Shown here piece after piece: positions 14,597-21,454 of a stretch of 64,000 nt of DNA. The stretch is taken from positions 77,450-141,449 of the forward strand of contig JAAYBJ010000003.1 of NCBI GenBank assembly GCA_012730105.1, written 5' to 3'. The translations under genes were made by a program, and so were the position numbers. This stretch comes from Candidatus Hydrogenedentota bacterium (GTDB lineage Bacteria > Hydrogenedentota > Hydrogenedentia > Hydrogenedentales > CAITNO01). Under the pieces are notes generated by a model. That model worked only from the letters and a program-made list of their open reading frames with translations, had not been told where the DNA came from and did no database searches. The number at the start of each line of letters is the position of its first letter. Positions within the stretch are counted from its first letter, which is position 1.

Positions 14597-14628
14597 CCCT
14601 ATACGCTATACCCTATACCCTAAACCCT
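14597..14628. repeat. CCCTATA heptamer tandem repeat
   Basis: Four or so units of a 7-mer (CCCTATA, CGCTATA, CCCTATA, CCCTAAA) ending in CCC. A short tandem array distinct from the ATTCC heptamers at 15.9 kb. Confidence 0.75.
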
Positions 14629-15924: not shown

Positions 15925-16195
<271 letters not shown>

Positions 16196-18911: not shown

Positions 18912-19679
18912 TTATTTATTTCCGATCACGAGCATCTCAAAATCTTCCGGCGTTAAAGCATCATTCCTGGAATATGCACCCAGTTTTGCGCCAAAGATTT
19001 CAATACGGCCGTAACCGAGCGTTTTTAGCAACCAGGTGATTTCGCTCGGCACGTAATAGCGCTCATTGCACGAAAGGGTCTTTTTGTTGCCCGAATCGTC
19101 CTCGAATTCCGTAATGTTGAAATCACGGAAGGTCATCAGGTCGAAGGCATTATTCTTATAGGCGGCATTGCCCTCCTGGCGCGCTTCGGCACAGAAGGCC
19201 TCCACGTTATGAAACAGGGGAAACAGGCCGTTGAGCGTGGTGAAGATTAATTTGCCTCCGTCTTTCAGGGACCGGGTCACGTTTTTCAGTATCTCGAAAT
19301 TCATTTCGTCCGTTTCCATTAACGGGAATCCCCCTTCGCAGAGCATGATGGCGGCATCAAATTCCGCGTTGAACGGAAGGTTCCGTGCGTCGTGCTGTCG
19401 GAAATCAATATGCAGGTCATGCTCGGCCGCTTTTTCCCGCGCCCGGGCCAGCTGGGATTCCGAAAGATCAATCCCCGTAACGCAGTATCCCCGTTTGGTC
19501 AGTTCAATCGCGTGCCGCCCGGTCCCGCAGCCTACATCGAGTATGTTCAGTGATTTGTCAAACTGAAATTCCTTTTCGAGGAAGTCGCATTCTCCGATCG
19601 TTCCCTGCGTAAAGCATTCCTTGTCGTAGGTGCGCCCATAGTTCTGAAAGAGACTTTCATACCATTGTTTTTCGTTCAT
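18912..19679 (-). CDS. Class I SAM-dependent methyltransferase
   Basis: 255 residues. Motif I is LDVGCGTGRHAIEL (~45-58), followed by VTGIDLSESQLARAREKA, IDFRQHDARNLPF, FDAAIMLCEGGFPLM and LKDGGKLIFTTLNGLFP. This is the small-molecule methyltransferase fold (Methyltransf_11/25); the substrate is unknown. The open frame extends upstream to 19826, but that part is remnant of the neighbouring GxxExxY element; the ATG at 19677-19679 has GGAG 8 nt upstream and fits the family start. Convergent with the DUF1080 gene. Confidence 0.9.
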   Translation of the reverse strand: MNEKQWYESLFQNYGRTYDKECFTQGTIGECDFLEKEFQFDKSLNILDVGCGTGRHAIELTKRGYCVTGIDLSESQLARAREKAAEHDLHIDFRQHDARNLPFNAEFDAAIMLCEGGFPLMETDEMNFEILKNVTRSLKDGGKLIFTTLNGLFPLFHNVEAFCAEARQEGNAAYKNNAFDLMTFRDFNITEFEDDSGNKKTLSCNERYYVPSEITWLLKTLGYGRIEIFGAKLGAYSRNDALTPEDFEMLVIGNK

Positions 19680-19699
19680 GTTGTTTCTCCAAAGCGAAA

Positions 19700-19729
19700 T
19701 AACCGCAGAGGACACAAAGAGCATAAAGG
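19700..19729. repeat. Left inverted flank of GxxExxY element
   Basis: Reads AACCGCAGAGGACACAAAGAG and matches, inverted and with one 9-nt unit missing, the right flank at 20129-20166. Together they bracket the decayed GxxExxY gene. Confidence 0.6.
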
Positions 19730-19776
19730 CGACGTTGAATGCATAAATTGACAGGCTAAGTACTTCAGACAAACTT

Positions 19777-20125
19777 CTATATCTCGAACTTGTACGAACC
19801 GAAGTTAATGAGCAGGCCATGTTCAACAGGCGAAGACTTCAGGTATACGAGAATTTGTGCCTCTGCTCGGGCGCCAACGCCTTGGCAGTTTTAACTCAAT
19901 GATGAGTCGGCCCTCTAAAAAAAGATCCGCGAAAGAGTCGCCTATAAGCGTTCCATCTTCATCAAAAACCTTAATGGGGAATTGCTGTTCAATGCCAAGG
20001 CCTGCCTTGCGCAATCGGTGAGCCAGTGCATTCTCATAGACCTTTTCCAAATGTCCATGGCCATGATACAGATGAATGTTGTAGGAAATCTCTCACACCT
20101 TGCCACACAAAGCCTTAATGTCCAT
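19777..20125 (-). pseudogene. Decayed GxxExxY (PD-(D/E)XK_3) protein gene
   Basis: The reverse strand encodes a typical GxxExxY protein of ~115 residues in pieces. It starts with ATG at 20123-20125 (MDIKALCGKV), then an in-frame TGA where the family has Arg, continues NIHLYHGHGHLEKVYENAL and the nuclease-like GDSFADLFLEGRLIIELK, then shifts frame twice near 19860-19890 before ending QILVYLKSSPVEHGL and LINFGSYKFEI with TAG at 19777-19779. One stop plus two frameshifts show a dead gene. Inverted AAAGAG-type repeats flank it. The family is widespread, and its function is unknown. Confidence 0.85.
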
Positions 20126-20128
20126 ATT

Positions 20129-20166
20129 TTTTCTTCTCTTTGTGTTCCTTGCGTTCTTTGCGGTTT
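20129..20166. repeat. Right inverted flank of GxxExxY element (nonamer repeat)
   Basis: On the reverse strand it reads AACCGC followed by period-9 units AAAGAACGC, AAGGAACAC, AAAGAGAAG, ending just before the GxxExxY start codon. Inverted partner at 19700-19729. Confidence 0.65.
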
Positions 20167-20173
20167 GGTCTTC

Positions 20174-21277
20174 CTACTCCAACCCACGCACCAGCGTCAG
20201 CAGAAAGTCCCGGTTATCGGCGGTTACATACCGCATCTGGCCGCCCATACGGTTGAAGGATTTGTTGTAGCGCAGGTAGTAGTCGGGATTGTCCATGGGC
20301 GGTTCGCCCTGGGACCAGTCCCAATGGCTCTCCTGCAAATCAACAATAACCATAAAATGATTATCCATGTGGCGACCCTGCTGGATATGGATGTTCTGGG
20401 ACATGGACAGGCTCTTTTCGAAGATCATGGGGGACATGACGGCGGAGCCGATGCTGATGTAGACGCCGCCATCGAGATTCATGACCTGGTTTGCGTAGAT
20501 GAGGAAGTCGCGCTGGGCGGCGCGGCCGATGGCGGCGCAATGGTTCATAGGATGGGTATAGATGATGTCATGGCCGATCATGGGATGGCTCGTGAAGGAG
20601 ACGCCAAGCCGGTAGGCCGCCGCTTGGAGGCCATATTTTTTGAAAGGATGCGGTACGGCCATCCATCCCGTGGGCAGGTTAAAGGTCTTGATCCGGTCGA
20701 GCAGGTCAGCTGCCGCCGCCGCCTGTTGCGGGTCCGAAGCGGCCTTATCTTTGATTTCATCAAGCAGTTGTGCTTCGGGGGGAATGTTGAGCCCTTCCTC
20801 TTCGACGAAAGCGCCGACAGACTCGCCGTAACCCATGCCGCGCCACGCGCCGACCACGATGGCCAGATTCAGGTAAAACCCGGTTTCACGCCAGGTGCCG
20901 AATTCGCCTCGTGCCACATTGACGCGGACATCTTCGCTACTGTGGCCCTGGAAAGCGAACTCCCAGTCATGGATGATGCCGGCGCCATTGGTAGCGAGGT
21001 GGGTGATCCAACCGTCCTGGATCAACTTGATAAACACCGGGGCGAGACCGTTTTTGATGGCGTGGGCGCCGAAGGTCAGCATGCGCGATTTGTTGGCCCC
21101 TTTTGCCATCGCGAGGCGTTCCACCAGTTCGTCCATGACCTTTTGCCCGGACTCGGATAGCGGATGGGCAATGGCAGCATCCACGGGCACATGATCGCGC
21201 TCGATAAAGACCTTGTCCTTGCGCTCTGACAAGGGTTTGATGACGAGTTGATGACGGTCAAACTGGGAATAAGGCAT
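20174..21277 (-). CDS. Deoxyhypusine-synthase-like NAD-binding-fold protein
   Basis: 367 residues, not confidently named. Layout resembles the deoxyhypusine synthase family: KSRMLTFGAHAIKNGLAPVF then ITHLATNGAGIIHDWEFA (compare the TTAGGxxxD region of that family), FTSHPMIGHDIIYTHP (compare the SPALTDGSxGDMIFFH region) and NLDGGVYISIGSAVMSP (compare the GGGV region). The catalytic Lys block near the C-terminus of true deoxyhypusine synthases was not found, and bacteria lack eIF5A, so a different substrate is expected. ATG at 21277 has CGGAG 8 nt upstream; the GTG at 21286 does not. Predicted cytoplasmic. Confidence 0.6.
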   Translation of the reverse strand: MPYSQFDRHQLVIKPLSERKDKVFIERDHVPVDAAIAHPLSESGQKVMDELVERLAMAKGANKSRMLTFGAHAIKNGLAPVFIKLIQDGWITHLATNGAGIIHDWEFAFQGHSSEDVRVNVARGEFGTWRETGFYLNLAIVVGAWRGMGYGESVGAFVEEEGLNIPPEAQLLDEIKDKAASDPQQAAAAADLLDRIKTFNLPTGWMAVPHPFKKYGLQAAAYRLGVSFTSHPMIGHDIIYTHPMNHCAAIGRAAQRDFLIYANQVMNLDGGVYISIGSAVMSPMIFEKSLSMSQNIHIQQGRHMDNHFMVIVDLQESHWDWSQGEPPMDNPDYYLRYNKSFNRMGGQMRYVTADNRDFLLTLVRGLE

Positions 21278-21454
21278 GACAGGCACTCCGGGTTAGGTAC
21301 TTCTCAACAAATTGATACTCAGGAAAGCAAGGACAGACCCGGCTTGTCCGCCATGGTGGACTCACTGCAGTCGCCGGAGTCAGTCCCTGCTTTCCGAACT
21401 TATTTTCAAAGCGAATTTCCAGTGTTATTCCATGTATTCCGTAGTCACGAATTC

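Follow-up and report, generated by a model that had tools for sequence, protein, structure and literature searches.

In the case of REPINs, the enzyme is an HUH/Y1 transposase. For the intervening sequence of the Coxiella 23S rRNA, the relevant sections of the source describe a gene of the S23p/IVP family with tandem heptamers upstream of the open reading frame (PMC4990558). Heptameric intergenic repeats are reported from Xanthomonas and Nostoc (in sections of PMC4692102), and tandem TAACTGA heptamers from Beggiatoaceae (in sections of PMC4679880). The family entries for GxxExxY genes (TIGR04256 and PF13366) give a protein name and nothing on arms or mobility. No explanation of GxxExxY function or mobility was found in the open-access literature, and neither were the arm repeat strings described below.

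The window, i.e. the whole stretch of 64,000 nucleotides of Candidatus Hydrogenedentota DNA analysed here, contains a member of this family. A Pfam profile search located a GxxExxY gene remnant (PF13366, PDDEXK_3) at 19877-20110 on the minus strand, with one in-frame TGA inside; its score of 54.5 bits against a cut-off of 22 places it in the family. In our collection of genomes, in which G000 is the window's own genome, the remnant is G000:C253:97326-97559(-). Inspection by eye showed that the reading frame is lost past the E-x-K motif. The locus is composed as follows.

18912-19679, minus strand: left neighbour gene, which we take to be SAM methyltransferase-like from its motif VLDVGCGTGR
19701-19729, plus strand: left arm, AACCGCAGAGG ACACAAAGAG CATAAAGG, three 7-bp words with 2-bp spacers, the third decayed
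19877-20110, minus strand: broken GxxExxY gene, PF13366 profile positions 3-80, TGA near the gene start
20136-20165, minus strand: right arm, read on the minus strand as AACCGCAAAG AACGCAAGG AACACAAAG AG, three words, inverted relative to the left arm
19701-20165, no strand: whole putative dead element, 465 bp arm to arm
20174-21286, minus strand: right neighbour gene, 370 aa, homology to three congeners beginning at 20175-20179

The words of the left arm are CGCAGAG, CACAAAG and CATAAAG, and those of the right arm, read on the minus strand, CGCAAAG, CGCAAGG and CACAAAG. An automated repeat search returned the same region as an inverted repeat of 39 nt (19689-19727 and 20130-20168, 74% complementary). 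A chance palindrome was considered and rejected, as the arm pair scores 15 and random pairs of window segments reached at most 14 (0 of 2989 as high). The first-pass annotation had thus been right in describing a decayed GxxExxY gene between inverted repeats. It had also noted an extra 9-mer on the right: the third right unit does exist, but the left arm has a decayed counterpart, giving three units on both sides.

On the left, congener homology stops at 19679 in two congeners and at 19667 in one. On both sides, homology stops where the neighbour genes end, so these points delimit the element from outside without fixing its boundaries. Beside the right neighbour, a second match of about 128 bp to the end of this gene lies about 0.7 kb off in two congener contigs (G056:C126 and G060:C477, loci L186 and L187). 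The nearest relative of the window copy is the locus on contig C166 of the same genome (50% identity), and the window word was not decisive in the comparison of these two. Our reading is that the feature in the window is probably a dead copy of a mobile element of about 0.5 kb, whose ends are recognised by the element's own nuclease.

The own genome holds eight GxxExxY loci, deduced from nine matches because one gene is split into two pieces. Two intact copies score 130.3 and 137.7 bits for TIGR04256 (cut-off 35). Reading the flanks side by side and by eye, we saw tandem-repeat arms at all eight loci, with words that differ between loci as listed here by contig.

C24: CACGAAA
C332: CACGGAA
C182 and C136: CACAGAG
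C166: CACAGAA
C34: GATGAAR
C91: CACACRRAG-type
Window: CGCAAAG/CACAAAG

The automatic inverted-pair score of C91 was only 12.

To describe the arms at the level of the phylum, a Pfam search was carried out on 60 genomes, yielding 180 GxxExxY matches in 51 of them, up to nine per genome. The own-genome loci and the higher-scoring others were analysed, lower-scoring matches being excluded; this gave 98 loci from 39 genomes, 97 of them with usable flanks and one with too short a flank. An inverted arm pair with a score of at least 15 was found at 88 of the 97 loci and in none of 485 shuffles. Using 300-nt flanks, the pair was found at 85 of 97 real loci and at none of 65 shifted intervals. Flanks paired across genomes reached the same score in 131 of 1869 cases, a figure inflated because loci share words. 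Similarity of the flanks in direct orientation also occurs, at 45 of 97 loci, and at some loci the arms lie within nested or tandem hairpins. Among the nine loci below the threshold, most showed by eye a one-sided arm or arms in another order; at G029:C499 no arm was seen in the flanks. The first-pass annotation had named other loci lacking these flanks as an observation against a mobile element: the letters of the flanks are indeed mostly different, yet inverted arms of the same build, i.e. terminal inverted repeats of the kind that IS elements and MITEs have, stand at those 88 loci.

In general, a 7-bp word is repeated about three times in an arm, with spacers of 1-3 bp, so that the units are 8-10 bp apart; a free measure of the period gave 8-10 as the best value in 76 of 88 loci. 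The most frequent words have the form C-[AG]-C-[GAC]-[GA]-A-[GTA], others including ACAGGAT and GATGAAT. Because the word finder allowed only 8-10 bp spacings and favoured C1, C3 and A6, these features of the word are partly imposed by its scoring. The 101 loci gave 27 different consensus words, of which some are probably out of register. The arm-to-arm length has a median of 539 nt (85 loci), and the interior of about 0.5 kb is mostly occupied by the PDDEXK_3 gene. One locus, G032:C223 (L119, 1120-2112), consists of two tandem GxxExxY elements, each with arms, whose proteins are 99% identical, a recent duplication.

Regarding the protein, 94 GxxExxY sequences share the residues E, D, E-x-K and Q-xxx-Y, with a conservation of 94-100%. 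A structure model of the Cerasicoccus homologue (pLDDT 92.3) was compared with the PDB using Foldseek. Its best matches were Cas4 (4ic1, 4r5q) and lambda-type exonucleases, with a probability of 0.94-1.0 to the Cas4 chains of 4ic1 and 4r5q; the best E value was 2.3e-3, no match reaching E 0.001. From the motif set and the model, GxxExxY is predicted to have a PD-(D/E)XK fold like that of RecB, Cas4 and lambda exonuclease. In 10 of 15 close pairs dN/dS was 0.03-0.10, pointing to purifying selection, the ratios being rough because several dS values exceed 1, and in the other five pairs dS was saturated. Dead copies like that in the window aside, the gene is thus maintained as a functional protein with a nuclease fold.

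For the 85 of 98 loci that are intact and have arms, the identity of the proteins was compared with the similarity of the arms. Across 3476 pairs from different genomes the Spearman correlation was 0.318, a value reached by none of 500 permutations, and arm similarity rose from about 0.25 at 30-40% protein identity to 0.58 at 60-70%. Arm words within one genome are no closer to each other than those of different genomes (similarity 0.275 and 0.288, respectively). On the protein tree of the 98 loci, word positions 7, 2, 4 and 5 change 7, 16, 20 and 16 times, compared with minima of 28, 26, 28 and 23 changes in 200 shuffles. The arm word thus tracks the protein clade and not the genome. The arms are also conserved, scoring 12.8 against 4.7 for adjacent 3' spacers and 4.1 for random spacers (47 pairs), where the arm score is the higher of two measures and the spacer score a single measure.

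That the word changes with the gene family points to an enzyme that recognises the termini of the element encoding it. The linkage of word and clade would, however, also follow from plain co-inheritance without recognition, and the arm data by themselves amount to co-inheritance and to constraint on the arms, rather than to proof of binding. As a candidate recognition code at the residue level (analyses of 86 and 98 of 101 loci), a G at word position 7 accompanies H18/P23/L25 in 59 of 59 loci. As there are only two to three independent switches on supported branches of the tree, this covariation is largely a clade effect.

The same pattern could be followed beyond the phylum. Proteins related to that of C91, with identities mostly of 64-78%, occur at 51 loci in Planctomycetaceae, Verrucomicrobiota, Deltaproteobacteria, Nitrospirota and others, and 47 of these loci had enough flanking sequence (four had too little). 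An arm word was seen by eye in 40 of the 47 best pairs, 38 of them of the CACRRAG/CGCRRAG type, some with a single unit. Since one word type is common to these loci, the cross-pair threshold was uninformative in this set (13 of 47). Across genomes as well as phyla, the word is passed on together with the protein clade.

Additionally, six plasmid records were inspected as named cases. Inverted arms are clear in those of Bernardetia and Bacteroides finegoldii. The GxxExxY gene of Sphingomonas parapaucimobilis lies between fabD and fabG, and an arm, which the automatic pair search missed, includes the stop codon (by eye). Treponema has one repeat unit only, and in Prevotella nigrescens and a Fusobacteria plasmid (L273, L274) the flanking repeats are direct by eye, not inverted.

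A similar architecture was detected around another protein. Genes for the IVP four-helix bundle (PF05635) are present in 20 genomes of the sample; 30 loci were fetched, of which the weakest was excluded and one had too short a flank. Inverted arms were found at 23 of the remaining 28, with words such as TAGGGTC, GTTGACA and GTTGATA; for 22 of these 23 the period that fitted best was 7. The set is as follows.

L208-L237: IVP loci fetched, with 7-bp arms at e.g. L226, L232 and L233

In this sample the repeat period goes with the protein family, being 7 for IVP and mostly 8-10 for GxxExxY. Two heptamer arrays of the window resemble the IVP-type arms: one of CATTCCG with about 30 copies at 15929-16195 and one of CCCTATA with 4.6 copies at 14597-14628. 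Among the IVP matches listed for the own genome, none lies on the contig that carries the window.

On the reading of an element recognised by its own nuclease, the mechanism could be pictured in the following way. A live element of about 0.5 kb would comprise one PD-(D/E)XK GxxExxY gene of about 125 aa, framed by two inverted arms. We infer that the nuclease is the mover: it would bind the repeated words in the arms of its element, probably with several subunits per arm, and would cut or resect the DNA there. The element, released or single-stranded, might then be copied elsewhere by host repair or replication, leaving no target duplication. Copies that lose the gene would persist as hairpins or single arms.

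Arms are far more numerous than the gene, a point against this reading. The pattern ACCRCRRARNNCRCRRAR was matched 36 times in the own genome, where its reversed form gave 1 match; in the 60 genomes together the numbers were 1050 and 98. The number of arm matches per genome correlates with gene number at a rho of 0.40, and the reversed control at 0.37, so that this correlation is no evidence of dependence on the gene; the idea that arm counts report gene activity was rejected as not specific. In genome G011, 80 matches to the pattern go with no GxxExxY match, many of them in tandem arrays of hairpins of about 196 bp. Such gene-less arrays, with the word CACAGAG, lie on contigs C4, C5, C14, C26, C30, C31, C53 and C60 of G011, several of them near contig ends. 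In the own genome, a strong inverted partner within about 1.5 kb was found for only 5 of the 23 gene-less matches examined, and the gene-less pairs on C183 and C232 have, by eye, interior sequence in common.

These gene-less arms are an argument for a different division of labour, in which the arms are ends for an enzyme acting in trans (RAYT-like or another host-encoded recombinase), with GxxExxY as a cargo gene protecting or regulating the element. The few strong partners in the own genome also fit it, as do the four-helix-bundle genes, which share the architecture with 7-bp repeats and thus show that the build is not tied to one protein fold. A single trans-acting mover would, however, be expected to impose its own word, whereas words go with the GxxExxY clade from one genome to another, and the period of the repeats varies with the protein family. 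We consider this alternative rather unlikely, although it is the strongest of those weighed here.

Six loci were compared with relatives in search of empty sites, giving three clean ones, two loci with non-adjacent flanks and one with a single flank found. At C332 of the own genome, the flanks are 523 bp apart and the gap is 7, 7 and 27 bp in congeners G056, G060 and G035, respectively. At C166 the gap is 751 bp, compared to 128 bp in G060 and G056. In the case of G059:C67, it is 518 bp in G059 and 26 bp in G042; G043 has the element. The net missing DNA at C332, C166 and C67 is 516, 623 and 492 bp, and the arm-to-arm segments measure 503, 615 and 487, thus an agreement to within 5-13 bp.

The window itself has no clean empty site, its two flanks being non-adjacent and in different contexts in all three congeners. 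At C24, the flanks are likewise not adjacent: homology stops at query positions 1359-1363, and the part from 1974 onwards matches other contigs. These stops near the arms at the window and at C24 may merely reflect the ends of coding sequence. For C34, a single flank was found, in one congener only.

By eye, the arms are absent from all three clean empty sites, so the arms arrive together with the gene. Arms and gene are present or absent as a block at these sites, and arms and protein are conserved while the DNA between them drifts. That arms and gene move as a unit is well supported. Aligning loci with empty sites had been proposed in the first-pass annotation as a check for common flanks and target duplications. 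Inverted arms do recur and three empty sites were found, but the flank letters differ and no target-site duplication, such as classical IS elements and MITEs show, was seen by eye at the window, C332, C166 or G059:C67. The suggestion made in that annotation, a small mobile element with terminal repeats, gains support from the three clean empty sites, together with the recurrence of the same build across the phylum.

The empty sites also bear on a homing explanation, in which intergenic hairpins pre-exist in the host and the GxxExxY gene cuts and enters a hairpin bearing its word. Gene-less arm pairs do occur in the own genome, and a second copy of the C332 region in G060 (contig C66) has, at the corresponding intergenic position, a hairpin that bears the C332 word but no gene; as G060 is 7% contaminated, this copy may be another strain's. 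A homing endonuclease would require an arm, as its recognition sequence, in the empty site, and the C66 hairpin is the exception to three sites without one. Homing onto a pre-existing hairpin is thus disfavoured, and we regard it as improbable. Finally, the arms could fold as hairpins and C332 apparently lies between convergent genes (by eye), but a role as transcription terminators or as hairpins at mRNA ends, kept around a small conserved gene that does not move, is very hard to reconcile with a block present or absent from arm to arm at three sites, with spread across phyla at mostly 64-78% identity, and with a tandem period and clade-specific words that terminators do not need.

Returning to the self-recognising element, a nuclease that reads its own arm word would provide a compact and testable set of DNA-recognition specificities, a class of mobile elements without a classical transposase, and an origin for short tandem intergenic repeats, including the published heptamers. 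It is tempting, if still tentative, to generalise: GxxExxY may represent an undescribed class of self-recognising mobile nucleases, in which the 7-bp words proper to each clade form a natural code from protein to DNA word. Together with the four-helix-bundle elements and their heptamers, it could belong to a broad class of ‘word-arm’ mini-elements, which would account for a large part of those tandem intergenic repeats of 7 to 9 bp in bacteria that lack an explanation.

How these elements relate to described systems can now be specified. The heptamers of Xanthomonas and Nostoc and of Beggiatoaceae are tandem 7-bp intergenic units like the IVP arms found here; GxxExxY arms differ in having mostly a period of 8-10, and the relevant sections of both sources (PMC4692102, PMC4679880) make no link to IVP genes. 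The 23S rRNA intervening sequence, as described in sections of PMC4990558, is also small and selfish, and combines inverted repeats with a single small gene. In the published cases given there, it differs by its four-helix-bundle protein, 7-bp period and rRNA location; the locus in the window has protein genes on both sides and contains PF13366. The putative ‘transposases’ of the TIGR01784 type, with their Thiomargarita MITE homologues, also combine a PD-(D/E)XK gene with miniature inverted-repeat DNA; they belong to a different Pfam family (PDDEXK_2), and tandem-word arms are not described in the relevant sections of PMC4853749. In the case of RAYT/REPIN (PMC3116915), the likeness lies in small dispersed inverted-repeat units, many of them gene-less. 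What distinguishes the present elements from REPINs is that the gene inside is of the PD-(D/E)XK type and that the arms are tandem 7-bp words varying by clade.
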